30,196 nucleotides of DNA from positions 1 through 30,196 of IMG/VR virus record IMGVR_UViG_3300015265_000013. The stretch is one strand, 5' to 3'. Both the position numbers and the translations under genes were made by a program. Source of the DNA: a virus. Below the pieces are notes generated by a model. It did no database searches, had not been told where the DNA came from, and was given only the letters and a program-made list of their open reading frames with translations. Below, piece after piece: positions 1,178 to 30,196 of the stretch. The number at the start of each line of letters is the position of its first letter. The stretch's first letter is position 1.

Positions 1178-3181
1178 GTGTACCGTGAGAACTACTTTCG
1201 TGGCCTGCGCCCCGACCCCGATCTCTGGATCGACGAATGGGCCGACGAGTACATGCGGATCCCGCGAGACACCGGCGCCCCCGAGCCCGGCCAGTACCGC
1301 ACTTCACGGACACCTTATGCCCGCGAGCCAATGCGTTGCCTGTCGCCGGCTCATCCCTGCAGGCGCGTGGTCACCATGGTGGCCTCGCAGTTGATGAAAA
1401 CCCAGATCGCCCTGAACTGGATGGGCGGCCTGATCCACATGGCGCCTTCGAACATCCTGGCCCTGCTACCCAGCCTCGGCTTGTCCAAGCGGGTATCGGG
1501 GCGGATTAGCAAGACCATCCAAGCAACCCCTGTGTTGCGCGAGCGGGTCGCGGCCACTCGCTCGCGGGACGCACGCAACACGATGGACACCAAGGAATTC
1601 GAGGGTGGCTCGCTGTACGTCACCACCGCCGGTTCAGCGGCCAACCTGTCGGAGCTGTCAGCACGCTACATTTACGGCGACGAAGTTGACCGTTGGGAGA
1701 ACGACGTCGGCCAGGAGGGTGATCCCATCAAGCTGGCAGAGACGCGGGCGACCAACTTCGGCCGCAACGCCAAGATCTATTTTTCCAGTTCACCGACAAT
1801 CAAAGGCGCCTCGCGGATCGCTGATCTGTTCGAGTCCAGTGACCAGCGCCACTACTATGTGCCTTGTCCGCACTGTGGGCACATGCAGGTGCTGGAGTGG
1901 GAAAACCTGCTCTATTCCGCCGATTTCAGCGTCGTGCATTACAAGTGCGCAGCGTCCGGGATGGACTGTGACGTGCTCATCGAGGAGCACTATAAGAGCG
2001 ACATGCTCGCCCGTGGTGAGTGGCGTGCGCATGCCAGCGGCGACGGCAAGACGGTGGGATTTCATCTCAGCGCCTTGTACTCGCCGACAGGCTGGATGGA
2101 CTGGACCTCGCTTGCCATCGAGTTTGAAGACGCGAAAAAAGCCCAGGCCCAAGGCGACACCAGCTTGATGCAGGTGTTTTACAACACTCGCCTTGCCAAG
2201 GTTTGGGATAGCGCACTCGAACAAACCAAGTCTGAAGTGCTGATCGCTCGGGCACGACTGGAGACCTACACCCTAGGCACAATGCCCGCCGGTGTGCTGA
2301 TGCTCACCGGCGCCGTCGACGTACAGGCCAACCGCCTGGAAATGATGGTGATGGGTTTTGGCGTCGGCATGGAGCGCTGGGTGGTCGATCACCAGGTCAT
2401 CTGGGGTGACCCGGCCGATGAGCGAACCTGGGCTGTACTGGACGAAAAACTCAAGGCTCGCTATCGGCATCCTTGCGGAGTCGGCTTGGGCATCCTTGCC
2501 GTTGGCGTCGACTCCGGCGGTCACCACACCGATGAGGTCTACCAATTCTGCCGCGTGCGTCGTTGGCGCAACGTCTTCGCCATCAAGGGCGCGAGCAAGC
2601 CGGGTAGGCCGGTCATCGCACAACGCCCGTCCTTGGTTGATGTGACTTGGAAAGGCCAGACCGAACGCAATGGCGCCGAGCTGTGGTTTGTCGGCACCGA
2701 CACGGCAAAGGATTGGATCTACAACCGCTATCCGTTTCCGGACGGACCGGGTTCGCTGCACTTTGCCAATGACTTGCCGGACGAGTTCTTCGCTCAGTGC
2801 GTCGCCGAGCGCAAGGTCGTGCGCTACGTGCGCGGCCACAAGCGTATCGAATGGGTCAAAGGCAAGGCCGAGCGCAACGAGGCGCTCGATCTGATGGTGT
2901 ACTGCCTCGCGATGGCGCACTACCTCGGCATCAATCGCTACCAGGAACACGACTGGGATCAGGTGCGCCAAGCGCTGGCTCAGTCCGGTCTGTTCGACGA
3001 TGTCTTGGGCATCAAGCCGGTTCAGGGTGAGCGCGTTGATGAAGGCGAAACACCTGAACCTACGGCTGTGCGACAAGCTCAAGCCGCACCACCACCTGCT
3101 GCACCAGTCGCTCCAGCGCGACCACCAGCTGCACCACCTCAACGCCGCAGTTCAACCAGCGGTTATCTGAAGAGACGCTGA
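1178..3181 (+). CDS. Terminase large subunit, lambda gpA family
   Basis: This is the packaging ATPase and nuclease. As read from GTG 1178 it has 667 residues. Visible parts are an atypical Walker A region (about 68-76, VASQLMKTQ), a Walker B region (about 164-171, YIYGDEVD), a four-cysteine cluster (C230, C233, C257, C264), and the start of the nuclease domain near D381 (GAVDVQANRLE). The C-terminus is Pro/Ala/Gln-rich. The start is uncertain. GTG 1178 has no well-spaced ribosome site, yet the frame stays open back to 1133 and reads like protein (HTEFSDGAQVYREN). Just before that comes ATG-CCT-TAA at 1124-1132. One base change (CAA to TAA) in codon 3 would explain this, so the original start may be 1124, overlapping the small-subunit gene. 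Activity depends on whether GTG 1178 is used efficiently. Confidence 0.9.
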   Translation: MYRENYFRGLRPDPDLWIDEWADEYMRIPRDTGAPEPGQYRTSRTPYAREPMRCLSPAHPCRRVVTMVASQLMKTQIALNWMGGLIHMAPSNILALLPSLGLSKRVSGRISKTIQATPVLRERVAATRSRDARNTMDTKEFEGGSLYVTTAGSAANLSELSARYIYGDEVDRWENDVGQEGDPIKLAETRATNFGRNAKIYFSSSPTIKGASRIADLFESSDQRHYYVPCPHCGHMQVLEWENLLYSADFSVVHYKCAASGMDCDVLIEEHYKSDMLARGEWRAHASGDGKTVGFHLSALYSPTGWMDWTSLAIEFEDAKKAQAQGDTSLMQVFYNTRLAKVWDSALEQTKSEVLIARARLETYTLGTMPAGVLMLTGAVDVQANRLEMMVMGFGVGMERWVVDHQVIWGDPADERTWAVLDEKLKARYRHPCGVGLGILAVGVDSGGHHTDEVYQFCRVRRWRNVFAIKGASKPGRPVIAQRPSLVDVTWKGQTERNGAELWFVGTDTAKDWIYNRYPFPDGPGSLHFANDLPDEFFAQCVAERKVVRYVRGHKRIEWVKGKAERNEALDLMVYCLAMAHYLGINRYQEHDWDQVRQALAQSGLFDDVLGIKPVQGERVDEGETPEPTAVRQAQAAPPPAAPVAPARPPAAPPQRRSSTSGYLKRR

Positions 3182-3182
3182 T

Positions 3183-3389
3183 ATGCCCTTTACCCAGAAA
3201 CACCTCGAAGTTATCGAGCGTGCCATTGCGCGTGGCGAAAAAACGGTGCGCTACAGCGACCGAACGGTTGAGTACCGCGATGTCGATGAACTGCTCCGCG
3301 CTCGTGAAGAAATCCGCAGTTCGTTAATCAGCGCTGCCGCTCCGCGTTCGCGGGTCGTGCGGCTCAGTCACGGAGGTAAGGGAGTCTGA
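3183..3389 (+). CDS. Head-tail joining protein, gpW-like
   Basis: This 68-residue basic protein has the size and pattern of the lambda gpW family: an N-terminal helix (KHLEVIERAIARGEKTVRY), a short beta hairpin (RTVEYRDVDELLRA), a second helix and a disordered Arg-rich tail. gpW sits in the portal vestibule after DNA filling and keeps the genome in the head before tail joining. It lies one base after the terminase stop, and its TGA overlaps the portal ATG (TGATG at 3387-3391). Gene order terminase-W-portal is the same as in lambda. Confidence 0.85.
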   Translation: MPFTQKHLEVIERAIARGEKTVRYSDRTVEYRDVDELLRAREEIRSSLISAAAPRSRVVRLSHGGKGV

Positions 3390-4873
3390 TGTCTCGACAA
3401 TTTCCGGCACTGTCTCGTAGCGGATTTTTGCTGCCATCGAACATCAAGGCCAGCTACGAAGGCGCCGGAGAGGGCCGTCGTTCGGCCAGTTGGGATGCCT
3501 CCGATAACGGCATCAACAGCATCAACACCCCGGCGCTACGTAATCTGCGCGCCCGCTCGCGGGCTGCGGTGCGCAATGATCCGTATGCGGCCAACGCGAT
3601 CAACAAGCGCGTCAGCAATCTCATCGGCACCGGTATCACGCCGCGCCCGAAGGTGAAGGACGAAGAGCTGCGCAACCTGTTGCAGGAGCTCTGGGAAGAC
3701 TGGGCCGATGAGTCGGATGCCGATGGCCTCTGCGACTTTTATGGGCAGCAGGCGCTGGTGGCTCGCACCGTCGAAACGGCCGGCGAGTGCTTTGTTCGGT
3801 TGCGTCCGCGTGGTCTTGAAGAAGGCATAGTCGTGCCACTGCAGTTGCAAACTCTGGCACCGGAGTTTGTGCCGCACGACAAATTCGAGACCACCCGCGA
3901 TGGCAACATCATTCGCGCCGGGATCGAGTTCAACCCGGCCGGTAAACGCGTGGCGTACTGGATGTACCGCTCGCACCCACGCGACGCGTCGTCGCTCAAC
4001 AGCGGATACAACCAACTGGTGCGCGTCCCGGCCAGCCAGGTGCTGCATATCTTCGAGCCGCTGGAACCGGGTCAATTGCGCGGCGTGCCACGCATGTCGC
4101 CGGTCCTCAAGCGCTTGCGCAGCCTGGACAACTACGACGACGCGGTGCTGTTCCGGCAGGAGGTGTCCAACCTGTTCGCCGGCTTCATCAAGCGCCCGTC
4201 GCCGGACATGGGCCAGGTACCTCGCGATCCGGTCACTGGCCAACTGATCACCACCGACCGTGATGGCTTTACACCGATGGTGGCGCTGGAACCCGGCACC
4301 ATGCAGGAGCTGGGCGCCGGTGAGGAGGTTGAATTCTCCAAGCCGCCGGACGCCGGCAACAACTACCCGGACTTCATGCGTCAGCAACTGATGGCCGCAG
4401 CAGCCGGCACCGACACGCCTTACGAGATCCTCACCGGTGACATGAAAGGCATCAACGACCGCGCGCTGCGTGTGGTGCTCAACGAGTTCCGGCGCCGCCT
4501 CGAACAGCTGCAATTCAACGTCTACATCCACCAGCTCTGCCGGCCGGTACGTGCCGCCTGGTTGGACATGGCGGTGCTGGCCGGTGTGATCGAGCTGCCG
4601 GACTACGCCAAGCGTCGTCGTGAATTTCTGCGCACGCGCTGGGTGCCGCAAGGCTGGGCCTACATCCAGCCGGTGCAGGACGTGCAGGCGCGAATGCTGG
4701 AGGTCAACGCCGGGTTCGGTTCACGCAGTGAGATGTGCCTGCGCACCGGTTACGACGCCGAAACGGTTGACGCGGAAAACGCCGCTGACGCTCAACGTGC
4801 CCGCGACTTAAAACTCAATTACCGAACGCTCGTCGAGGTCGAAATCCACCCTGACGACCAGGAGAAACCATGA
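3389..4873 (+). CDS. Portal protein, lambda gpB family
   Basis: This 494-residue portal (lambda-type) forms the dodecameric ring at one head vertex through which the terminase pumps DNA. Family features include the N-terminal ARSRAAVRNDPYAANAINKRV segment, a central region around FEPLEPGQLRGVPRMSPVL (about residue 215-235), and GTDTPYEILTGDMKGINDRALR (about 340-362), the usual portal signature. Length is normal for the family. It is coupled to the gpW gene upstream by TGATG and to the protease gene downstream by an ATGA overlap at 4870. No damage is visible. Confidence 0.93.
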   Translation: MSRQFPALSRSGFLLPSNIKASYEGAGEGRRSASWDASDNGINSINTPALRNLRARSRAAVRNDPYAANAINKRVSNLIGTGITPRPKVKDEELRNLLQELWEDWADESDADGLCDFYGQQALVARTVETAGECFVRLRPRGLEEGIVVPLQLQTLAPEFVPHDKFETTRDGNIIRAGIEFNPAGKRVAYWMYRSHPRDASSLNSGYNQLVRVPASQVLHIFEPLEPGQLRGVPRMSPVLKRLRSLDNYDDAVLFRQEVSNLFAGFIKRPSPDMGQVPRDPVTGQLITTDRDGFTPMVALEPGTMQELGAGEEVEFSKPPDAGNNYPDFMRQQLMAAAAGTDTPYEILTGDMKGINDRALRVVLNEFRRRLEQLQFNVYIHQLCRPVRAAWLDMAVLAGVIELPDYAKRRREFLRTRWVPQGWAYIQPVQDVQARMLEVNAGFGSRSEMCLRTGYDAETVDAENAADAQRARDLKLNYRTLVEVEIHPDDQEKP

Positions 4874-6012
4874 AACCGCCGTTCCCTCTACGGATCTTCA
4901 ACAAACTGGACGGGCAACTGCCCGTGCAAGACAAACACTGGTACAGCCTCCGGGCCAGCGGTGAAGCCGAGCAACGCACTATCGAGGTGTACGTCTACGG
5001 TGAGATCGGCACCTGGGGTATTACTGCCAATCAGTTCGTGCGCGATCTGGCTGCGCTGGATGACGGTACTTCACCGATTGTCGTTGCGTTCAACAGCATC
5101 GGCGGCGACCTGTTCGACGGTCTGGCCATTCATAACGCCCTGTCGCGATTGGGCGAGCGCTGCACCGGCCGCGTCGATGCCCTCGCGGCGAGCGCGGCAA
5201 GCGTCGCGGTCTGCGGTGCCCACCGGGTGGTGGTGGCGGAAAACGCCGCGCTGATGATCCACAACCCGTGGACGTACGCCTCGGGTGATGCCGAGGATAT
5301 GCGCAAGGTCGCGACCGCGCTGGATCAAGCGCTGGAGCTCATCATCACGGCCTACAAGGCAAAGGCGCCAAACATCGACGAGGTCGAGTTGCGACGCCTG
5401 GTCAATGCCGAGACGTGGCTCACAGCCCGCGAAGCGGTGGCTCTCGGCCTGGCTGACGAAGTTGGCGACGGTGTGCAGATCAAGGCGTGTCTGGGGCAGG
5501 GCACGGTGATGCAGAAATACCAGCACACGCCCCAGGCATTGCTGGATCTGCTGAATGAACCCACGAAACCGACCGAATCGGTGATCGACGATCCTGAACC
5601 ACCGGCACCTGGTGCGGATGCGGCGGCGCTGGCTCTGCTGATCAGCAAGTCCTGTAACCAAGGCGGGATGAGCAACTTGATCGAGCCACTGCTGGCCACC
5701 ACCAAGTTGGTTGATGAGGCGACCGTGAACGCCGCGATCACCCAGGCCAAGTCGATACGCGATCTGTGCGTGGCCGCCCGGTTGCCAGAGTTCGCGGTGG
5801 AGTTTGTGCAAGCCGGACTGGATACCAGCGCCGTGCGTGCGCGGCTCTTCGACAAGGTCGTAGGGAAGGGCGGGGGCTTCGAGATCGACAACAGCCTGCC
5901 GCAGAACGAAGACCCGGCGCCAAAAATTCAAGCCAAACAACCCGATCCGTCCTCGATCTGGGCAGCCCGTCAGGCCGCACAGTCCACAACCTCGAAAGGA
6001 GCAAGACCATGA
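4870..6012 (+). CDS. Head maturation protease, ClpP/S49-like (lambda gpC role)
   Basis: This 380-residue protein has a ClpP-type serine protease fold in residues 1-205. It shows the NSIGGD loop (75-80), the nucleophile Ser108 in LAASAAS, and His131 in MIHNPW, followed by TWLTAREAVALGLADEVGDG. It would process head proteins during capsid assembly. The C-terminal 170 residues are helical and acidic to mixed, the usual place of the scaffold portion in C-like proteins. An in-frame ATG at 5668 could start a separate scaffold protein, as Nu3 does inside lambda C. It overlaps the portal and decoration genes by ATGA. The third catalytic residue cannot be fixed by eye. Confidence 0.88.
   Translation: MKPPFPLRIFNKLDGQLPVQDKHWYSLRASGEAEQRTIEVYVYGEIGTWGITANQFVRDLAALDDGTSPIVVAFNSIGGDLFDGLAIHNALSRLGERCTGRVDALAASAASVAVCGAHRVVVAENAALMIHNPWTYASGDAEDMRKVATALDQALELIITAYKAKAPNIDEVELRRLVNAETWLTAREAVALGLADEVGDGVQIKACLGQGTVMQKYQHTPQALLDLLNEPTKPTESVIDDPEPPAPGADAAALALLISKSCNQGGMSNLIEPLLATTKLVDEATVNAAITQAKSIRDLCVAARLPEFAVEFVQAGLDTSAVRARLFDKVVGKGGGFEIDNSLPQNEDPAPKIQAKQPDPSSIWAARQAAQSTTSKGARP
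5668..6012 (+). CDS. Possible in-frame nested scaffold protein (Nu3-like)
   Basis: An internal ATG at 5668 lies in the protease frame, preceded by AAGGCGGG with a rather short 4-base gap from AAGG. It would give a 114-residue protein equal to the protease C-terminus, mostly helical with a flexible Pro/Gln-rich end. Lambda makes its scaffold Nu3 in exactly this way. There is no independent evidence of expression, so this is an inference from position, composition and the lambda parallel. Confidence 0.35.
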   Translation: MSNLIEPLLATTKLVDEATVNAAITQAKSIRDLCVAARLPEFAVEFVQAGLDTSAVRARLFDKVVGKGGGFEIDNSLPQNEDPAPKIQAKQPDPSSIWAARQAAQSTTSKGARP

Positions 6013-6416: not shown

Positions 6417-7412
6417 ATGGCCGATATCGCCATTTTTGAAGACGACGCTTTCAGCGTCCCCTCGCTGACCGCCGCGATCAACGAGCAGGAATACCTGCCG
6501 GGCCGAATCAGCAGCCTTGGCCTGTTCCGCGAGGAAGGCACCACCAACCTTACGGTGCAGGTCGAGAAGGACGGCGACACCCTGGCTCTGGTGCCGGCTG
6601 GTGAGCGCGGCAGTTCGGGCCTAGTGGTCGGTGGCAGCAAGCGTAATCTGATCCCGTTCAACACCGTGCACCTGCCGGAGCGCTTCACCATCAAGGCCGA
6701 TGAGATCCAAGGCATCCGGGCTTTCGGTACGCGAACCGAGCTGCAGTCTGTGCAGGACGTGGTTAACCGGCGCCTTGCCAAAGCGCGGCGCCAGTTGGAC
6801 GCCACTCATGAATTTCAGCGGATGGGGGCTCTGAATGGCCAGATCCTCGATGCTGATGGCAAGACGGTTTTGCTGGACATCTATAAGTCCTTTGGCGTGA
6901 ACCGTCAGAAAATGCCCATGGGGCTCAATGACCCTGAAGTTGACCTGCGAGTGAATGCTGGCGAAGCGTTGGACATGCAGGCGGATGCGTTGGGTAGTGT
7001 GACTAGCTCGGGTTCTCGAGCCTTCTGCGGCAAGAACTTCTGGAACAAGCTGGTCAGTCACAAGTCGGTCAAGCAAACCTATCTCAACACTCTGCAGGCA
7101 GCCTCTCTTCGCGGTGATGCACGCGAGAGCTTTGAATTCGGCGGCATTGTCTGGGAGCGCTATCGCGGCAAAGTGGCGGGCGTGCTGTTCGTGCACGATG
7201 ACAAGGCGCTGCTGGTTCCCGAAGGTGTGCCGGATCTGTACATCTCGGTCTTCGCACCGGCCGACTACATGGAAACGGTCAACACCGAAGGTTTGCCTTA
7301 TTACAGCAAGCTCGAACCGCTGCCATTTAACAAGGGTGTGGCCGGCGAAGCCCAGTCCAACCCGTTGCACCTGTGCACGCGACCTCGGGCACAGATCCTC
7401 CTGGAACTCTGA
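6417..7412 (+). CDS. Major capsid protein, lambda gpE family
   Basis: This 331-residue protein is the HK97-fold shell subunit of the lambda E type. Recognisable parts are LTAAINEQEYLPGRISSLG near the N-terminus, the LIPFNTVHLPERFTIKADEIQ strand region (about 80-100), FGTRTELQSVQDVVNRRLAK (about 102-122), and the C-terminal PADYMETVNTEG and KGVAGEAQSNPL segments. Length is as expected. ATG 6417 follows GGAGAG at 6404-6409. It has its own leader after a hairpin, which fits a need for very high expression relative to its neighbours. Confidence 0.93.
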   Translation: MADIAIFEDDAFSVPSLTAAINEQEYLPGRISSLGLFREEGTTNLTVQVEKDGDTLALVPAGERGSSGLVVGGSKRNLIPFNTVHLPERFTIKADEIQGIRAFGTRTELQSVQDVVNRRLAKARRQLDATHEFQRMGALNGQILDADGKTVLLDIYKSFGVNRQKMPMGLNDPEVDLRVNAGEALDMQADALGSVTSSGSRAFCGKNFWNKLVSHKSVKQTYLNTLQAASLRGDARESFEFGGIVWERYRGKVAGVLFVHDDKALLVPEGVPDLYISVFAPADYMETVNTEGLPYYSKLEPLPFNKGVAGEAQSNPLHLCTRPRAQILLEL

Positions 7413-7414
7413 CC

Positions 7415-7735
7415 ATGTCTTTCCGCGAGCTGCTGGAAGACATCGACGATACGGTGTTCGAAACCCTCGGCGACACGGCCCGGATCGAGGGCTACGACGA
7501 ACCGATGCTCGGCATGTTCGCGGCACCGTGGATGCAACCCAAGATGGGCAGCGTCAAAACGGCGTTGCGCGAGCCGAAGTTCGAGATCCGCGTCCGTGAT
7601 TCGCACGGCTTGAAAAAAGGACTATTGGTCAGTGTGGATCTGCCGGTGCTGGACGGCGGCGGCGACTACGACCTGCTGCAGCTGGAGCCGGGCGGTGACG
7701 GCCTTGTCGCCTTGATCCTGAGGAAACGACCATGA
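7415..7735 (+). CDS. Head-tail attachment protein (FII-like)
   Basis: This 106-residue protein is encoded two bases after the capsid stop and has the size and placement of the lambda FII / phage_attach group. It is expected to complete the head neck to which the tail docks. The beginning (SFRELLEDIDDTVFETLGD) and the strand-rich C-terminal half (KKGLLVSVDLPVLDGGGDYDLLQLEPGG) resemble family members often annotated as ATP-binding sugar transporter-like in prophages, a misleading name. ATG 7415 is chosen. An upstream in-frame start at 7373 lies inside the capsid gene. The stop overlaps the next ATG by ATGA. Confidence 0.7.
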   Translation: MSFRELLEDIDDTVFETLGDTARIEGYDEPMLGMFAAPWMQPKMGSVKTALREPKFEIRVRDSHGLKKGLLVSVDLPVLDGGGDYDLLQLEPGGDGLVALILRKRP

Positions 7736-8388
7736 GTGTCGGCAGCTACTTCAAGCCCTCGGCCGGTGGCGGGATGATCTCCCTGCAAACTTCGGCGGCA
7801 GACCTGAAAGCCTTTCAGGATTTCGCCGCCCTGGTGCCCAAAGCCGCCGCCGCTGCCCAGCGCCGAGCCATCAACAAAACCCTGCGTTGGCTCGCCACAC
7901 ACATCGCCCGCGCTGTCGGCCGTCAGGAACGTATCGCCGTGGCAGCAGTGCGGCAGCGCCTGCGGGCCTACCCGGTCAGCGGGGGAGCCAACAGCGGCAA
8001 ACTCTGGTTTGGCCTCAACGCCATGGAAGCCAGTCGCATCGGTCGTCCTCGGCAGAGTCGGTCCGGTGTATCGGTGGCCGGTCGACGCTTTCAGGGTGCG
8101 TTCTTCAAGAAGGTCTACGGCAACAGCGCGGACGTCTGGATCCGCACAGCCAGCAAGCATTTCGACGCCAGTGACTACCCCGACAGCGATGTCAGCGGGG
8201 CGGGCGGAGTCAGTTCGGGCTGGATCGCCGAACACGGCAGCCGCTTTCCGTTGGCGAAAGCCAAGGTCTCTCTGGAGCAAGCGCGGCCACACTTCGAAAG
8301 CTGGATCCGCAAGGCCGATGAACATCTGGTGCACGTGCTGCAGCAGGAACTCAACTTTGAACTGCAGAAGCATCTGAAGGGGAAATGA
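7732..8388 (+). CDS. Minor tail protein Z-like, tail completion
   Basis: This 218-residue protein matches the prophage minor tail protein Z pattern. It has a helical N-terminus with ALVPKAAAAAQRRAINKTLRW, a KxWFGLN-type segment near residue 88 (SGKLWFGLNAMEASRIG), a glycine-rich FQGAFFKKV loop, and a helical end (FESWIRKADEHLVHVLQQEL). The Z family is needed for tail completion in lambda-like phages. ATG 7732 overlaps the previous stop. It sits at the border between the lambda-like head block and the P2-like tail block, so here it serves a contractile tail. Confidence 0.75.
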   Translation: MSVGSYFKPSAGGGMISLQTSAADLKAFQDFAALVPKAAAAAQRRAINKTLRWLATHIARAVGRQERIAVAAVRQRLRAYPVSGGANSGKLWFGLNAMEASRIGRPRQSRSGVSVAGRRFQGAFFKKVYGNSADVWIRTASKHFDASDYPDSDVSGAGGVSSGWIAEHGSRFPLAKAKVSLEQARPHFESWIRKADEHLVHVLQQELNFELQKHLKGK

Positions 8389-22871: not shown

Positions 22872-22938
22872 ACGCCAAAGTGTGAAGCGGATTAGCAGAA
22901 TGGATGTAGCCAGCCGTATCGAAATTATATCGAAAGCA

Positions 22939-22954
22939 GTACATATGTTTGTAC
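22939..22954 (+). repeat. Short inverted repeat upstream of acyltransferase
   Basis: GTACA (22939-22943) and TGTAC (22950-22954) flank TATGTT in an AT-rich segment 45 bases before the acyltransferase start. It overlaps a TACAAT (22952-22957) that could be a -10 element. It is not a LexA box. A dedicated repressor site is possible but unproven. Confidence 0.35.
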
Positions 22955-22998
22955 AATGTGCCCCAAAATTTTATCCCCGGCAGGGAAGAAGAGGGTGC

Positions 22999-24900
22999 AT
23001 GCATAACAAAGATTTGAGCTATCGCGCAGATATCGATGGCCTAAGAGCGATTGCTGTACTGCTTGTGGTTCTTAACCATGTTGGCTTCAGTGCCTTCTCG
23101 GGCGGCTTTATTGGTGTTGATGTTTTCTTTGTGATTTCAGGCTATTTGATCACTGGAATCATACTTGGACAGATGTCAAAAGGCACATTCTCGTTCACCC
23201 AGTTTTACCTTCGTCGTGCTCGACGAATTCTTCCGGCACTCTATGTTGTACTCTTGGTTGTGATGATTGCGGGGTATCATTTATTTCTTCCTAGTGATTA
23301 CAGTGCCCTGTCGCAAAGTACATTGAGCGCGATAGCTTTTGTATCAAACATTTTTTTCTGGAAAACGTCTGGCGGCTATTTTTCTTCGAGTTCGGAAGAA
23401 ATGCCCCTGTTGCACATTTGGTCGCTTTCAGTAGAGGAGCAGTTTTACTTTGTTTGGCCTCTCGCGCTTTTGTTGATGTTCAAGTTGAAGTCGACTAGTG
23501 CTCGTATTGCGGTGGCAACAGTTCTTCTTGTTGCTTCTTTTATACTGGCAGAAATTGGTGTAAAGAATGAATGGTCGAGCGCTTACTTTCTGTTGCCGTC
23601 GCGTGCAGGCGAGCTGATTATTGGTGCTTTGTTAGCCTTTTGGCTCGCTAAGCGTAAGCCAGTTGATCATGCAAGTGTTTTCGCTAATCTACTTTCGATT
23701 GCGGGAATTTTGATGGTGCTGGTTCCGGCATTTGTACTGGATAAGGTATCTGATTTTCCTGGTGTCAACGCATTGATTCCATGTATTGGTGCAGGGCTGA
23801 TAATCACATCTAGGGTAATGGGAAAGAGCGTAGTTTCCTTTATTTTGGAAAGTCGACCATTTGTTTTCGTCGGACTCATCTCGTATTCCCTTTATCTTTG
23901 GCACTGGCCGCTGATCAGTTTTCTTCACTATTCGAGAGTCGAAATAACATTGGAGCTTGCTGCAGGTTTGGTGATTGCCTCTGTTTTTTTAGGCTATTTG
24001 AGTTGGCGATTTGTGGAACAGAAATTTCGACATAATAATAAGCCGATGGGGAAAAATATTGCGACCATCACTGTTTTTGCGGGTTTGTTTGTTGTCTCGT
24101 TGCCAATGGTGGTGTACCTGAAAGATGGAATGCCTACGAGATTTCCGTTTGCAATGTTGACTCAAGATCAACTGGCTGCCGAGCTGGGAAGATATTGGAG
24201 CGGTATTGAAAATACATCCATGGTTGCAAAGTTTGATGATTCAAAAAATAAAAGGAAAGTATTAATTGTCGGGAATTCGCATGCCTATGATTTTTCGTAC
24301 GCCCTTACTGAGAATCAGTTTGATGGGCAAGTAAAGCTTATCGCTACGCCGCATTTTTGTTTTAACTTTTCACATGATTTCGGTTTGCCGGATAAGGTGG
24401 AAGAGTGTAAAGCTTCGCTGAAGAAAGTTCTTGAGAGTCCAGAGTTAAAAAAAGCGGATGTAATCTATTTGCATGATAACTGGGAAGGTAAGAATTTTAG
24501 TGGTCTCTCGGATATGATCGGTAAAGTGAGGGCTATCAATTCTGCCCCTATTTATGTGGTTGGGCCAAAGATGGTTTTTTTGGAGGCCGTTCCAAAAATT
24601 TCACAAAGGGCGCAGCATGAACGATATGTAACTGCGGCGAGTATTAATGAGTACTCAAGGCAGTTTATGGAGCCCAAGAAGTTTAAGTATGATGAGGAGC
24701 TTAAAGCTTATTTTGAGAAGGGGAAATTTGAAGGTGTTAAGTATATAAGCGCGCTTGATGTGCAGTGTGGATCTAATCATAAGTGTGACGTGCTTACTGA
24801 AGGTGGTGAATACCTTTATTTTGATTATGGTCATTTCACATTGATTGGCTCTCGGGTTTTTGGGAAACACCTAAAAGATAAATATGGTGATCTGTTTTAA
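22999..24900 (+). CDS. OafA/YrhL-like membrane acyltransferase with SGNH domain
   Basis: This 633-residue protein begins with RADIDGLRAIAVLLVVLNHV, the signature of acyltransferase-3 membrane proteins. About ten transmembrane helices follow (VDVFFVISGYLIT, SVEEQFYFVWPLALLL, SYSLYLWHWPL) to about residue 375. The C-terminal periplasmic part (about 400-633) has SGNH-type motifs (VLIVGNSHAYDF, DYGHFTLIGS). Such proteins transfer acetyl groups to O-antigen or other surface sugars. ATG 22999 is next to the conserved start and follows GAAGAAGAGG. In-frame upstream starts reach 22882 but add an unlikely 39 residues. It is much more AT-rich than the phage genes, pointing to transfer. It is a likely lysogenic conversion gene that alters the phage receptor. 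Confidence 0.88.
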   Translation: MHNKDLSYRADIDGLRAIAVLLVVLNHVGFSAFSGGFIGVDVFFVISGYLITGIILGQMSKGTFSFTQFYLRRARRILPALYVVLLVVMIAGYHLFLPSDYSALSQSTLSAIAFVSNIFFWKTSGGYFSSSSEEMPLLHIWSLSVEEQFYFVWPLALLLMFKLKSTSARIAVATVLLVASFILAEIGVKNEWSSAYFLLPSRAGELIIGALLAFWLAKRKPVDHASVFANLLSIAGILMVLVPAFVLDKVSDFPGVNALIPCIGAGLIITSRVMGKSVVSFILESRPFVFVGLISYSLYLWHWPLISFLHYSRVEITLELAAGLVIASVFLGYLSWRFVEQKFRHNNKPMGKNIATITVFAGLFVVSLPMVVYLKDGMPTRFPFAMLTQDQLAAELGRYWSGIENTSMVAKFDDSKNKRKVLIVGNSHAYDFSYALTENQFDGQVKLIATPHFCFNFSHDFGLPDKVEECKASLKKVLESPELKKADVIYLHDNWEGKNFSGLSDMIGKVRAINSAPIYVVGPKMVFLEAVPKISQRAQHERYVTAASINEYSRQFMEPKKFKYDEELKAYFEKGKFEGVKYISALDVQCGSNHKCDVLTEGGEYLYFDYGHFTLIGSRVFGKHLKDKYGDLF

Positions 24901-24974: not shown

Positions 24975-25663
24975 TTATTTTGATTGTGATATTTTATCAA
25001 TAAGTTCAGGTCCTTGGTTGCGAACATTGCCTATAGCTTGGTCAACTTTGAACCACTCAAACACCTCGGCCTTTTCACCCTGGTGCAGCACCACTTGTTC
25101 GGCGCGCTCCTTCGACGTAATTGGGTCCAGCCATTCACGTGCTAGCTCAGATGGGAGCACTACCGGACGCCGGTCATGGATACCACCATCCCGCTGGCAC
25201 TGTCAGCGGTGATGATCACGAAACCGTCATTCTCGCTGTGTTCTTGCCCGGCGGTTGGGTATTGACCAATCGCGGCACACAGGATTGGTGCATGGTCCTG
25301 ACGGCGAATCAAATAGGGCTGTTTTTTAGGTCCGCCCTCATCCACCCATTCGAACCAGTTGTTGATCGCGACAATAGCTCGATATGGCCATATGGCACGA
25401 AAGAACGGCCCGTGCGCGACCTTCTCTACTCGAGCATTGATGGGAGCCGCACGATCTTTTGCCCAATGCGGCCGCCATCCCCAGCACACTAGGTCGGCGT
25501 GCAGAATGTCACCTTCTAAGTGGGGTAAGGCAACCTGCGTTGAAGGCGCGACGTTGTACTGCTGGAGCGGCTGATCTCCAACGGTACTGACCAGAGCATT
25601 GGGCATGCTCAAGGCGGCAACGAAGTCGTGAATGCCGCTGTACTGCGAGAGTCGTCCGCACAT
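24975..25663 (-). pseudogene. SRAP (YedK/HMCES-like) protein, frameshifted
   Basis: Read from ATG 25663 the gene opens with MCGRLSQY, the catalytic Cys2 of SRAP proteins that bind abasic sites in single-stranded DNA. It continues with WGWRPHWAK, INARVEK and NNWFEW. After GMVVSMTGVR it stops at 25160. The next frame continues correctly as IHDRRPVVLPSELAREWLDP, down to a stop at 24975. One missing base near 25181-25185 (GTGG_TATC) explains this. The lost part includes the family's conserved His (in IHDRRP). The full product would be about 228 residues, normal for SRAP. It is divergent from umuDC-like genes, with an SOS box between. It is either a pseudogene or carries a sequencing error. Confidence 0.82.
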
Positions 25664-25723
25664 TGCCTGCCCGCCTATCTGATATTTCCTACGAAAAATT
25701 GACCGCAAGGCTTTCAGAAAGTT

Positions 25724-25743
25724 AACTGTATATTCGTACAGTA
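25724..25743 (+). promoter_or_regulatory. LexA (SOS) box between SRAP and umuDC-like genes
   Basis: CTGT (25726-25729), eight bases, ACAG (25738-25741) is a very good CTG-N10-CAG box with TA-rich centre and flanks. It lies 17 bases before the umuD-like start and 61 bases before the divergent SRAP start, so one operator could control both. Confidence 0.88.
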
Positions 25744-25759
25744 TTGGAAGTCGTGCGTC

Positions 25760-26155
25760 ATGAGTTATTCAATTCTAGGTCCCATCAGTGAGGGCGGCTT
25801 GACGGTGCCGCTGTGTCTCTTCCGCGTCCCGGCCGGGTTTCCGTCGCCGGCAGCGGATCACATTGAAGCGCAGATCTCGTTGGATGAAGTGCTGAACATT
25901 CGTGCCCCACATGTCTATCTGGTGTCGCTCACCGGTGAAAGCATGCAGGGCGCGGGAATATATGAGGGAGACCTGGCCATTGTCGATCGATCAATCGAGC
26001 CTGCCCACGGCCACATCGTCATTGCGCTCTTGAACAATGAACCCGTCTGCAAGCGCCTGTGCCTTCGCGGCAGGGAAGTTATCCTGATGTCGGAAAACCC
26101 CAAGTATCCGCCACGGTACGTCCTTGAAGGTGACGAGCTGGCGATCGGGGTGTGA
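25760..26155 (+). CDS. umuD: UmuD-like autoproteolytic protein
   Basis: This 131-residue S24-family protein has an Ala25-Gly26 cleavage site (FRVPAGFPSP), nucleophile Ser61 in TGESMQGAGI and general base Lys98 in VCKRLC. RecA filaments would trigger self-cleavage to a UmuD'-like form that activates the polymerase partner. ATG 25760 follows GGAAG (25746-25750). It is behind a LexA box and 21 bases upstream of umuC. No frameshift is present. Confidence 0.92.
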   Translation: MSYSILGPISEGGLTVPLCLFRVPAGFPSPAADHIEAQISLDEVLNIRAPHVYLVSLTGESMQGAGIYEGDLAIVDRSIEPAHGHIVIALLNNEPVCKRLCLRGREVILMSENPKYPPRYVLEGDELAIGV

Positions 26156-26176
26156 TCACCAACAGCGTGCGCAGCC

Positions 26177-27454
26177 ATGTCTAAGCCGCTGCCGGTATTC
26201 GGCTTGATCGATTGCAACAGCTTCTACGCCAGCTGCGAACGCGTGTTCCGACCAGACCTCGCCAAAGTGCCCATCGTGGTGCTGTCGAACAACGACGGCT
26301 GCGTCATCGCCCGCAGCTACGACGCCAAGCCCTACGTAAAAATGGGCGAGCCGTACTTCCAGATCAAACACAAACTCAAGCAGCACCGCATCGTGCCGTT
26401 CTCCTCGAACTATGCGCTGTACGGCGACATGAGCGAACGTGTCATGACCCTGATTGAATCGATGGTGCCGGCCGTCGAGGTCTATAGCATCGACGAAGCC
26501 TTCGTCGACCTCACCGGTATCCACGACTTGGACGGCCTCGGCCGTAGGATCCGCAGCCAGGTGCTGCGATGCACGGGCATCCCAGTCGGAGTCGGCATCG
26601 CGCACACCAAGACCCTGGCCAAGTTGGCCAACCACACCGCCAAACGCCTGCAGGCGCAAACCGGTGGCGTCGTGAACATCTGCGACCCGATCAAGCGCGA
26701 CTGGGTGTTACGCAACACGGACGTGGCCGAGGTCTGGGGAGTAGGGCGGCGCATGAAGTTGCACCTGGATGGCATGGGCATCAAGACTGCGATGGATCTG
26801 GCCAAGGCAGATGCCTGGACGCTACGGAAAAACTTCAGCGTGGTGATCGAGAAGACGGCCAGGGAGCTGGCTGGCACTGCATGTCTTGAGTTGGATGAAC
26901 CGGATCCGCCCAAACAGGAGATCTGCTGCAGCCGGATGTTCGGCAGGCGCCTCACGGAGCTGGCACCGATCAAGGAGGCCGTTGCTACTTACGTGATGCG
27001 CGCCTCGGAAAAACTGCGGGCCCAGAACTCACTGTGTAAGAAGATCCGTGTCAGCATTCGCACTGGCATGTTCAATCCGGATGAAGCCAAGTACGCAAAC
27101 GGCGTTCTGATTGAGCTGCCGTATCCCAGCGATGATGTGCGCCTGCTCACCAAGGCAGCCGTCGACGCTGTGGAGCGCGTGTTCCGGCCAGGATTCAAAT
27201 ACAGCAAGGCAGAAGTGATGCTCGTCAATCTTTGCCAACCTGGTGAATTCACCGAGGATCTATTTGCCACCACGCAAGCGGCCGAGGCGACGAACCTGAT
27301 GACGGTGTTGGATAAGATCAACGAGAGGTGGGGTAGGGGAACACTGCGGTCTGCGGGTGTGCCGATCAATCCCGATTGGGCAATGCGGCGCGAGATGATG
27401 AGTCAGAGCTACACGACAAAGCTTGATCAGTTGTGGAGGGTAGCTTGCAGGTAG
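26177..27454 (+). CDS. umuC: UmuC-like Y-family DNA polymerase (Pol V)
   Basis: This 425-residue protein has the Y-family palm motifs: LIDCNSFYASCE (Asp12) and SIDEAFVDL (Asp106-Glu107). They are followed by the GVGIAHTKTLAKLANHTAK thumb/HhH region and the little-finger domain, with DUF4113-like C-terminus (RWGRGTLRSAGVP, PDWAMRREMMSQSYTT). It does translesion synthesis with the UmuD-like partner. Length is normal (E. coli 422). It is the second gene of an SOS operon. Its end marks the last gene before the tRNA-like site. Confidence 0.95.
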   Translation: MSKPLPVFGLIDCNSFYASCERVFRPDLAKVPIVVLSNNDGCVIARSYDAKPYVKMGEPYFQIKHKLKQHRIVPFSSNYALYGDMSERVMTLIESMVPAVEVYSIDEAFVDLTGIHDLDGLGRRIRSQVLRCTGIPVGVGIAHTKTLAKLANHTAKRLQAQTGGVVNICDPIKRDWVLRNTDVAEVWGVGRRMKLHLDGMGIKTAMDLAKADAWTLRKNFSVVIEKTARELAGTACLELDEPDPPKQEICCSRMFGRRLTELAPIKEAVATYVMRASEKLRAQNSLCKKIRVSIRTGMFNPDEAKYANGVLIELPYPSDDVRLLTKAAVDAVERVFRPGFKYSKAEVMLVNLCQPGEFTEDLFATTQAAEATNLMTVLDKINERWGRGTLRSAGVPINPDWAMRREMMSQSYTTKLDQLWRVACR

Positions 27455-27500
27455 CAGAGGTGTCAGGTTCTGTTCGTTATCGGACACTAAAAACCGGAAA

Positions 27501-27522
27501 CAGACACCTTAACAGACACCTT
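27501..27522 (+). repeat. Tandem CAGACACCTT repeat
   Basis: CAGACACCTT occurs at 27501-27510 and 27513-27522, with an inverted AGGTGTC near 27459-27465. It lies between umuC and the tRNA-like site. Its function is unknown. It could be an arm-type recombinase site or a mobile-element trace. Confidence 0.4.
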
Positions 27523-27557
27523 GTTGACGCGGGGTAGGCTGGAGGCCTTGAAAATAG

Positions 27558-27630
27558 TGGAGCGGGTGAAGGGAATCGAACCCTCGTTATCAGCTTGGGA
27601 AGCTGAGGTCGATGGCCCAGTGACACCTGC
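27558..27630 (-). tRNA. tRNA-Gly(CCC)-like sequence, probably degenerate att remnant
   Basis: On the - strand the anticodon arm (TCAGC-TTCCCAA-GCTGA, anticodon CCC), T arm (with GGTTCGATTCC), acceptor 3' strand CACCCGC and encoded CCA (27558-27560) are intact. The acceptor 5' strand reads GCAGGTG (27624-27630), pairing with one A-C mismatch. The D-arm region between them does not form a normal D stem. This looks like the 3' half of a tRNA gene duplicated by integration, with a partly matching phage- or element-derived 5' part. It may not yield a working tRNA. Confidence 0.65.
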
Positions 27631-27720
27631 AGCTACAAACAACTCACTCAGATGATTCCAAAGTGCTATCTTTGGAGCTTGCAGTTGGAGAGCCTTAACG
27701 ACAAGTAACAGGAGTGAGAA

Positions 27721-28074
27721 ATGGATATCGCAGTTCTAAGCGTTCATGGCCACGGTAAGGCCGATGAGGAATACGTGCTACTGAAGGTAAGTGTTGATTG
27801 CGAGTTGTCCTACTACGCGCTCATCGACACTACATACGACGGTGAGAAAATCACAGATAAAAATAGACACGTTTTTTGGTTTCCAAAAAAAGAAGTAAAA
27901 GCCGGGGATGAGATTGTTCTGCGGACCAAGGTAGGGAAAAATTCTTGGTCCACCGCAACTTCAGGTCGTAGGCATACTCTTTATTGGAACCTCAAATCAG
28001 CCGTGTGGAACGACACGGGGGACGCGGCGACGTTGCTAAGGCTCCAGACTTGGAAAACCCTGAAAGTTAGGTGA
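27721..28074 (+). CDS. Small lamin-tail-like domain protein
   Basis: This 117-residue protein consists of one beta-rich domain. The segment VFWFPKKEVKAGDEIVLRTK and the motif TLYWNLKSAVWNDTGDAATLL resemble lamin-tail domains, an Ig-like fold in bacterial proteins often found with defence or DNA-associated genes. There is no signal peptide or membrane segment. ATG 27721 follows GGAG (27711-27714) six bases upstream. It lies between the tRNA-like site and a SIR2-like gene on the opposite strand. A role as a defence partner is a guess. Confidence 0.6.
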   Translation: MDIAVLSVHGHGKADEEYVLLKVSVDCELSYYALIDTTYDGEKITDKNRHVFWFPKKEVKAGDEIVLRTKVGKNSWSTATSGRRHTLYWNLKSAVWNDTGDAATLLRLQTWKTLKVR

Positions 28075-28391
28075 TGCCTCTGCTTAGTTCCCCTTCGGGG
28101 ATCATTGACGTACAGAAGCTCCGCTACCCTAGCCAAGTGGCGGACTTTTACGTGTTTGAGCCTGCGAGCTAGCGTCGTCGGTTGCTATCTGGTCTGGAGA
28201 GAGCGGCACCGGCGAGATTCAGAGGGCAAGCCTAGCAGCGGAAGTGCTGAAGAGGTTTAGGGCAAAATTAGGGCAAACTCAGGGCCGCTATGCGCCGCCA
28301 GACGCCATGAGCAACAGACGAAATTGCTGAAATTGCTGGTCTTTAGCGGTCTACAAGGATGCATGAAGGGGTTCGAATCCCTATCCCTGCT
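28075..28391. other. Gene-poor stretch with GGGCAAA pair and tRNA T-arm-like end
   Basis: No convincing gene is seen. A TCCCC-TTC-GGGGA hairpin without a T run lies near 28089-28102. A pair of GGGCAAA motifs follows (about 28260-28280), and AGGGGTTCGAATCCCT (about 28367-28382) looks like a tRNA T arm. The following bases do not complete an acceptor stem with CCA, so it may be a second, decayed attachment site. Confidence 0.35.
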
Positions 28392-29618
28392 TCACGGATG
28401 CCCCATCAGTTCGCGCTTGATTTTTTCACGCGCTTCTTTCCTCAACTCTCGCAGCGCCTTCTGGGATGTCGTGAGTTCACTGGAATTCAGTCGTAAGAAG
28501 TAGTCGGATGCTCCGATAGAAAAACATTGGACCTGCCCTGCCAAGTGTTTAAACCTGTCGGGGACACACTTGATGCCTGGATTAATAATCGAAAGTTTGC
28601 GAGACTTTAAGAACGACATCCATTCAGCGATTTGTTCGTCAATGTGGTTGTCCCCGAAACTGTATCCTATGCAAATAAGCTCGTCGGCGTAGTTGAGGCT
28701 TCCTTTAAAAAGGGATAGAAACTCAGAGGGGGCTATCTGAGTTAGCTTTTTTGAGAATTTGTGCGCGCCAGATAGTAAGCTTTTACGTAGAAAATTAATT
28801 TTGCCTTCGTTGTCTTCGTATACGATTTCATTTGTACATATAACGCCGTCTCGCACGGCGATGTCTTGGTTTATTTGGGTTATTAGTCTGAGTTGATTTG
28901 CGTAAGATGCTGGGTTGTTGCTCGTGGGTTTTACTTTTAAATAGTCGAGGGCGTCATTTTGTCCGAATATATCAAGTGCTCCATGCAATTTTATAAGGTT
29001 GATGCCGTATTCGCCAGGCTTAAAGAAATCATACTCGTTTTTAGTGATGGATTCGCGGCTCAACTTTTCGAATTCAATTTCATATGTTGACTCGCTGCCT
29101 ACGCTCATTTGCAAACTAATGCTTTCATTGAAGCCCGATTTCAAAGGTATGCTGGTTTTTGAAGCCAGCATCTCAACTATGCAGTCATGGTTCAATGAGA
29201 AAATCCATAAGGGCTTGTTCTTTATTGCTAGCTCATTTATGCCGTTGAAATCATCTAGCGCGCTCAAAGCGTAATTGTTATTTATGACTTGTCTCTCAAG
29301 CAGTAGGCCGTATACCAACTGAAGGAGAAAGCTGAGAGCTGAGTGGTAGTCTTGCCTGATTTTTTCATTTCGCTCTCTAGAACACTCTACTTCTATAGCG
29401 CCAATGATGTTTTCGTAATGAAGGTGTTCATTCTTTAGAAGGCCAATCAGGCTGCATATCACCTCATCATTCCATCCGCAGCCTCGAGATTTCCAAGTTT
29501 CATTTAGCGTAGTCAGCTTCTCAGGAGACATCCAACGCCTTATCTCGGTCGTTAGTTCCCAAACTAGCGGCATGCCACAATCATAGGAGGCTCCAGCACC
29601 AATAAATAAGGCTTTCAT
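28392..29618 (-). CDS. SIR2-like (predicted NADase) protein, candidate phage defence
   Basis: This 408-residue protein carries the SIR2-like motif series: GAGAS at residues 7-11, IFSLNHD (139-145), LIKLHGALD (208-216) and CIGYSFGDNHIDEQI (316-330). Such stand-alone SIR2_2-type proteins in Thoeris, DSR and related systems degrade NAD when phage infection is sensed. The middle region (about 20-130) is helical and unassigned. The last 30 residues are a charged helix. ATG 29618 has AAGGAG 13 bases upstream, a rather long gap. The gene is AT-rich compared with the prophage, which suggests acquisition. A lamin-tail-like gene is convergent to it. The defence role is inferred from family and location, not shown. 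Confidence 0.8.
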   Translation of the reverse strand: MKALFIGAGASYDCGMPLVWELTTEIRRWMSPEKLTTLNETWKSRGCGWNDEVICSLIGLLKNEHLHYENIIGAIEVECSRERNEKIRQDYHSALSFLLQLVYGLLLERQVINNNYALSALDDFNGINELAIKNKPLWIFSLNHDCIVEMLASKTSIPLKSGFNESISLQMSVGSESTYEIEFEKLSRESITKNEYDFFKPGEYGINLIKLHGALDIFGQNDALDYLKVKPTSNNPASYANQLRLITQINQDIAVRDGVICTNEIVYEDNEGKINFLRKSLLSGAHKFSKKLTQIAPSEFLSLFKGSLNYADELICIGYSFGDNHIDEQIAEWMSFLKSRKLSIINPGIKCVPDRFKHLAGQVQCFSIGASDYFLRLNSSELTTSQKALRELRKEAREKIKRELMGHP

Positions 29619-30196
29619 AACTTTAGTATCACTCCTTCAGAAGACGCTAAAGCATAGCAGCGGCAGCGCTAACTATTACGGCTGTCGGCAAAGCAAGGAG
29701 TGCTAGGAGGACGCGTTGCGCTGCTGGGATGAGTTGGTACGCTGGCTGATGCGATAGCAAGTCCAATCCGTCATTCGGGCAGTTTGAGCGTCGAAGGGTA
29801 TGGGGCAAAAATGGGGCAAACCGTACGCCAATCTATGCCATTTAATGCCCGCTATGCGTTTATGCGAGCAGGCAAGAATGCTCGGTTAAGCCTGCAAACT
29901 CGGGCCTATTCAACCAAAGCTGTCAGGTACTCCAGCACAATCGGAGTGTGGGAGGACAGGTCGGAGACGGCTTTATTCATCGGATTGTCAGGTAACTCGT
30001 TGGAAGGTGTGGGGCAAAAGCGCGGCAGTGGCCGGGCTTTTCCGCGATGGGCGCAAGGTTACCATGGGCGGTCTGTCGGACGCAGGCATCGCGGCCGGGT
30101 GACAGCTATATGGCGCAAAAAGCTCGACTATGCACGATTTATGCAAATCAGCATTTGTCTTCGCGAAAAACTTCAAGCACTATGCGCGTTATGCAA
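29619..30196. other. Gene-poor region with GGGCAAA motifs and possible coding remnant
   Basis: No complete gene is supported. Double GGGGCAAA motifs occur near 29800-29820 and once near 30011. A short open stretch ending with a TGA near 30102 reads plausibly as protein (AVAGLFRDGRKVTMGGLSDA) but has no start or family. An integrase or other gene may have decayed here, or lie beyond the right edge. Confidence 0.4.

Follow-up and report, generated by a model that had tools for sequence, protein, structure and literature searches.

The described systems closest to the locus reported here are SIR2-HerA (Nezha) and the SIR2_2/SIRim class of proteins; within the latter, DSR2 has a long C-terminal part and ThsA has a C-terminal SLOG domain. 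For Nezha of V. cholerae, passages of the published account describe the active-site Asn and His as required for immunity, and report that the SIR2 protein needs HerA (PMC11559045). One paper places small antiviral hotspots between conserved phage genes in P2, in P4, and in a P2-related phage of Vibrio (PMC9122126), and two others treat the mutS-cinA locus as a known site of tailocins and prophages, with prtR and a holin gene in a recombination hotspot (PMC2647930, PMC7815802).

We analyzed the IMG/VR virus record IMGVR_UViG_3300015265_000013 over its whole length of 30,196 bases (hereafter the window). Judged by eye from its lists of open reading frames, the genes run in the order holin, terminase, portal, tail, lysozyme, Dam-like methylase, and acyltransferase, followed by SRAP-like and UmuD/UmuC-like genes and then a region coding for a lamin-tail protein and a SIR2 protein. 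The acyltransferase-like gene (22882-24900; 672 aa, by eye) has a low G+C content (0.423) and is possibly an O-antigen-modifying lysogenic conversion gene; the SRAP-like, UmuD-like, and UmuC-like genes (by eye) occupy 25160-27454 and precede a tRNA-Gly remnant. The original prediction proposed that two genes of the window, for a SIR2-family protein and a small lamin-tail-like protein, form a candidate defense pair next to a tRNA-like integration site. The ORF list bears out that both reading frames are real and convergent, with a gap of 317 bp between them. We instead favor the reading that the SIR2 gene by itself is a prophage-borne, NAD-depleting defense carried as self-contained cargo, to which we give a probability of roughly 60%, its activity being predicted. 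The features of the region are as follows.

27558..27630, minus strand: degenerate tRNA-Gly(ccc), probable att remnant (ARAGORN; Rfam tRNA, 32.9 bits versus a 29-bit threshold)
27721..28074, plus strand: protein of 117 aa with a lamin-tail fold, interpreted as an independent phage passenger (profile, fold, viral relatives)
28227..28386, plus strand: W1, an att/arm-like repeat of about 160 bp at the SIR2 stop codon (23 of 398 Pseudomonas genomes match, beside unrelated genes)
28392..29618, minus strand: SIR2_2-type protein, 408 aa, probable NAD+-consuming enzyme (motifs, model pLDDT 92, structural match)
28977..28991, minus strand: KLHGA motif, residues 210-214, with the presumed catalytic H212 (aligned with LYKLHGSL of 8j4u)
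29184..29198, minus strand: SLNHD motif, residues 141-145, with the presumed catalytic N143 (aligned with IFTTNYD of E. coli SIR2, 8j4u)
29801..29926, plus strand: ARM, a phage segment on the other side of the SIR2 gene (44 of 398 Pseudomonas genomes match)
29906..29980, minus strand: mutS 5′ remnant, 13 shared codons and then divergent, probable prophage-mutS junction (sequence; beside ARM in 8 of 20 loci)
29927..30196, plus strand: leader between mutS and the repressor; the repressor itself lies beyond the window end and is present in contig L002 (repressor-anchored viral loci)

The lamin-tail and SIR2 genes have G+C contents of 0.475 and 0.433, respectively, and that of the late genes is higher (0.618). 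A promoter scan was at chance level (two found versus 2.8 expected), and there are five terminator-like sites versus 2.4 expected.

The SIR2 protein and its relatives

The SIR2 protein is matched by PADLOC SIR2 models (best E 3e-14), and it does not reach the cut-offs of Pfam SIR2_2 (PF13289; 15.1 versus 24.5 bits) or NCBIfam NF042942 (25.8 versus 500 bits). It carries the motifs GAGAS, SLNHD, KLHG, and GYSFGD, and a check for SIR2_2-type NADase features found the SIR2 fold together with the GAG, N..D, HG, and GYxFxD motifs. In an alignment of 27 rows, the window sequence among them, G7-G9, N143, H144, K210, H212, G213, G318, Y319, F321, and D323 are identical in all 27, and D145 is kept in 26. 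The description as a SIR2-family protein with the signature motifs is thus upheld by the PADLOC matches and the kept NAD-site residues, and the sequence points to a probable NAD+-consuming enzyme. Comparison with the L002 homologue gives a dN/dS of 0.09, indicating purifying selection.

An AlphaFold2 model of the protein (mean pLDDT 92) has the SIR2 subunit of SIR2-HerA as its best solved Foldseek match (E 4e-12), and VIA-align superposes the two with Z 21.2 (rmsd 4.2 over 314 aligned residues, model range 1-382); across the best solved matches, all SIR2 subunits of SIR2-HerA, Z is 18.8-21.2. The same chains are reached by sequence in a profile search (8j4u, E 6.5e-14), in which SLNHD faces TTNYD and KLHG faces KLHG. 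The middle region of the protein had been described as lacking an assigned domain, but it is not a novel domain: it falls within the structural alignment to the SIR2-HerA subunits and therefore belongs to a known architecture.

Homologues occupy 31 distinct places, comprising L002, a Vibrio plasmid, 27 genome loci (two of them, L034 and L035, weak or partial), and two further viral loci (L037 and L038); the neighbor counts below omit three further matches (a second copy in G017, G102, and the partial G159). Their distribution is patchy, with 5 of 398 Pseudomonas genomes matching at E 1e-30, and a protein search of phage records with SIR2 gave no match. BLAST clustering yielded no neighbor family common to more than two of the 31 loci, so an obligate linked partner of SIR2 is not visible. 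When 148 neighbors were scanned with Pfam (149 were selected and one was omitted), Mrr_cat was the commonest among the families listed, the first 25 of 162, with 3 of 148; 20 chosen nearest neighbors were scanned singly and the others in part.

The defense context of the relatives is mixed. Established or candidate defense genes adjoin some homologues: one (L028) lies about 100 bp, by its likely start, downstream of a PDC-S71 gene, another (L013) about 27 bp downstream of an FRG/PDC-S15 gene, and a third (L012) near a kinase-domain gene; others have metabolic neighbors, namely glutamine synthetase (L017), H+-pyrophosphatase (L016), and pirin (L009). The L012 homologue, from Collimonas (2323-3743), adjoins a tRNA-Gly(ccc) gene too.

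In a Campylobacteraceae genome (L023, 7986-12409), a SIR2 homologue without a separate sensor domain appears to be part of a type II CBASS operon. It lies about 55 bp upstream of a CD-NTase gene (SMODS, E 5e-8), which is followed by genes for an E1-E2 protein and a JAB protease, and the layout looks like type II CBASS with SIR2 in the effector place. CBASS linkage was located at 1 of the 31 loci; a second SMODS match and a second ThiF/E1-E2 match among the neighbors were not placed, and phmmer with the L023 proteins found L023 alone. Our guess that L029 also carries a CBASS operon proved wrong on scanning. By eye, no CD-NTase was recognized in the ORF lists of the window, and the L023 homologue has one alongside. 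In open-licence PMC papers on SIR2 with CBASS, the SIR2 passages of one paper describe no SIR2 effector of CBASS, which is a weak indication of absence.

A search of 30 records with DUF87 (HerA) gave no match in the window, L002, L037, and L038 records, which are possibly fragments; in the other 26, SIR2 has no match above the cut-off within 10 kb on its contig, many of these contigs being short. DUF87 matches do occur in 25 of the 30 records, and they are generic, since all 14 control genomes match as well. The sole match within 5 kb of a SIR2 homologue, in G009, is below the cut-off (20.5 bits) and lies at a distance of about 4.3 kb; the Vibrio plasmid has its nearest match about 13 kb from SIR2. 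These searches bear on a reading in which SIR2 is an effector that needs a host partner in trans, such as a HerA-like ATPase or a cyclic-nucleotide synthase, with the prophage carrying half a system. Because Nezha SIR2 is reported to need HerA, a HerA-less relative could be inactive alone; the closest fold is indeed the SIR2 subunit of SIR2-HerA, and the L023 homologue directly precedes CD-NTase, E1-E2, and JAB genes. Given generic DUF87 matches, none of them above the cut-off within 10 kb on contigs that are often short, and CBASS linkage at a single locus, we consider such a dependence improbable.

The CobB and SIRT5 deacylases also match the SIR2 fold, with lower Z (about 13-15), and the gene adjoins the repressor leader, as might be expected of a non-defense sirtuin deacylase or of a regulator of lysogeny or excision. 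Either role seems unlikely to us: the antiphage SIR2 subunits match better, the gene family is patchy in Pseudomonas, and a related prophage has a lamin-tail gene in the SIR2 place. The single-gene defense reading stays our preferred one, and we regard SIR2 as a plausible defense gene from its NADase-type motifs, its Nezha-like fold, its prophage cargo place, and some defense-gene neighbors of its relatives.

The lamin-tail protein as a separate gene

The small protein matches Pfam LTD (PF00932) with E 1.7e-4, under the gathering score (22.3 versus 34.3 bits). Its model (pLDDT 90) aligns with the human lamin A/C tail with Z 10.2 (94 residues aligned, 2.8 Å); lamin rows range from Z 6.8 to that value and the first non-lamin row has Z 5.0, indicating that the Ig-like LTD fold is present and that the protein had been aptly named lamin-tail-like. 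The family is found at 33 viral loci and in 10 of 398 Pseudomonas genomes; a protein search for it among phages and plasmids gave no match. All 14 of the 14 differences between the window gene and that of L003 are synonymous, indicating purifying selection. By eye, the gene lies downstream of lysis genes in L004 and L007 and adjoins a repressor in L005. The most fitting name for the product is a stand-alone lamin-tail protein of phages, and we read the gene as an independent passenger. Open-licence PMC abstracts combining lamin tail domain with phage or prophage describe no phage-borne stand-alone protein, weak evidence of absence.

The two genes were compared for co-occurrence in both directions. 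The lamin-tail profile matched none of the 31 SIR2-bearing genomes or records; this search contained no internal positive control, and the query works, as it matches 10 of the 398 Pseudomonas genomes. The SIR2 profile matched 1 of 44 lamin-tail-bearing records, namely the window itself, 34 of the 44 being virus records and possibly fragments. Among the 398 Pseudomonas genomes, the 10 with lamin-tail and the five with SIR2 do not overlap, which is undecisive alone as the chance expectation is about 0.1.

The structure of the window is also informative. Positions 28248-30196 match L002 at 91%, with the SIR2 gene inside; the L002 SIR2 protein is 96% identical, and L002 has no lamin-tail gene. Positions 27490-28118 match L003 at 91%, with the lamin-tail gene inside; the protein is identical, and L003 has no SIR2 gene. 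The L002-like and L003-like blocks meet in the gap between the SIR2 and lamin-tail genes, and the window is a mosaic. For each gene, the purifying selection is seen against an element in which the other gene is absent.

The genes are adjacent and convergent in the window and both families occur in viral records (SIR2 in L002, L037, and L038), but the distribution in both directions, the close relatives that each gene has in elements lacking its neighbor, the opposite strands with an att-like repeat in between, the mosaic structure, and a locus (L110) in which a lamin-tail gene takes the SIR2 place rather than accompanying SIR2 lead us to reject the proposed two-gene defense system, which we now think very improbable. 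In open-licence PMC, the work listed on SIR2 with lamin tail concerns Parkinson's disease, weak evidence of absence.

The tRNA-like site near the genes was correctly noted, with a tRNA-Gly(ccc) call by ARAGORN and an Rfam score above the threshold. A stretch that includes the 3′ part of the tRNA-Gly (positions 27490-27606) occurs twice in L003, the second time at 97%, consistent with an att remnant. Between the two copies of this segment, L003 codes for a 290-aa caspase/CHAT-like protein (7262-8134; by eye, with no Pfam match).

A variable place at the mutS end

Beyond the far side of the SIR2 gene lies the mutS remnant, a second junction absent from the earlier description; we take both this remnant and a long frame at the far end of L002 to be MutS by their sequences rather than by a profile. 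In contig L002, which codes for a PrtR/cI-like repressor (HTH_3 and Peptidase_S24), the mutS remnant and SIR2 stand together at one end and a mutS frame of 902 residues (45318-48023) at the opposite one. The simplest reading of this contig is a prophage that has integrated at the 5′ end of mutS, and the window element is probably likewise mutS-integrated, with its other end outside the record. We had also considered the window and L002 as permuted phage genomes; the mutS frame at the far L002 end favors an integrated prophage. At the end with the full mutS frame, L002 also has a 430-residue PIN-like frame (44013-45302; by eye), a possible second cargo gene.

Among repressor-anchored viral loci (the best 80 of 542), 78 of 80 match part of window positions 29780-30196; one of these 80, which is the L002 contig, has SIR2, and none has lamin-tail. 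In L179, the sole such locus that was read closely, the repressor has mutS immediately upstream. Prophages appear to use the 5′ end of mutS recurrently, with the remnant at 8 of the 20 ARM loci of Pseudomonas and the full frame in L002.

We examined 20 W1 regions (from 19 of the 23 matching genomes) and 20 ARM regions (from 20 of the 44, mostly best-scoring), with one overlap (G392). SIR2 is in none of these 40 regions and lamin-tail in one, L110, where the lamin-tail gene sits in the SIR2 place and in the same orientation, with W1 on one side and ARM and the mutS remnant on the other. When 10 ARM-adjacent genes were scanned (Pfam, E 1e-3), there was one FRG, one CAP12/Pycsar-type TIR, and one KAP NTPase; the rest were one DUF2846 under the cut-off and six without a Pfam match. 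The mutS remnant is present at the FRG locus and absent from the TIR and KAP loci, and the flanking genes of some ARM regions look chromosomal (e.g., L239, by eye). With SIR2, lamin-tail, and FRG genes all at mutS junctions, the evidence for swapped cargo is good, and a defense bias of the place is a separate matter. For SIR2, use of this place is seen in two sequences, the window and L002.

Another W1 copy, in L003, is adjoined by a gene for an S-type pyocin-domain protein (4170-5366) and a small DUF6572 neighbor (3803-4228) that is possibly an immunity gene (by eye).

Proposed function and comparison with known systems

We propose that the SIR2 gene is self-contained Pseudomonas prophage cargo, sitting in a variable place where the prophage end abuts mutS, and that it codes for a SIR2_2-type enzyme built like the SIR2-HerA subunit with no linked HerA. 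The protein would be made in the lysogen and stay inactive until a second phage infects; on infection it would cleave NAD+, the infection would abort, and the host population of the prophage would be protected. Both the NAD+ cleavage and the abortive protection are suggested by analogy with Nezha, as described in passages of PMC11559045. The lamin-tail gene would be independent, brought beside SIR2 by recombination near the repeated att-like segments. We speculate further, and tentatively, that the whole SIR2 clade is a HerA-free, one-gene NADase defense with the helical part as its own sensor, which can also be plugged in as an effector (e.g., in the Campylobacteraceae type II CBASS), and that mutS-integrated Pseudomonas prophages keep a swap slot; this wider scheme is possible rather than probable.

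A tempting but unsupported two-gene system is removed and replaced by a HerA-less Nezha SIR2 relative that possibly works alone; if it is active alone, it would illustrate how triggering of a Nezha-type SIR2 can do without HerA. In Pseudomonas prophages, the variable place at the boundary between mutS and the repressor could be mined for defense genes, and by-products of the analysis are a SIR2 homologue in what looks like a CBASS effector place and a family of lamin-tail proteins that stand alone in phages.

The SIR2 subunit of SIR2-HerA/Nezha (PDB 8sub, 8suw, 8j4u, 8w9l, and 8yhx) is alike in size, at about 400 aa, and in a fold that can be aligned over residues 1-382, the helical middle included, with Asn and His equivalent. 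The differences are an identity of about 20%, SLNHD in the window family as against TTNYD in 8j4u, and no HerA-type gene above the cut-off near the window SIR2. The window protein is a single protein of 408 aa that ends soon after the SIR2 fold and so probably lacks the long C-terminal part of DSR2 and the SLOG domain of ThsA; with the SIR2_2/SIRim class (ThsA, DSR1, DSR2, and FAM118), as presented in part of PMC12700824, it has SIR2_2-type motifs in common. The Pseudomonas mutS-cinA tailocin/prophage locus has the same order of mutS, PrtR-like repressor, and holin, and the passages describing it (PMC2647930, PMC7815802) cover tailocins and prophages, not the present cargo place. Prophage antiviral hotspots (P2/P4, and cI-integrase in Vibrio), in the sections of PMC9122126 that treat them, are likewise small variable places with conserved phage parts around them, near a repressor; unlike those, the place described here belongs to a Pseudomonas prophage, lies at the mutS-repressor boundary, and has att-like segments as its bounds.
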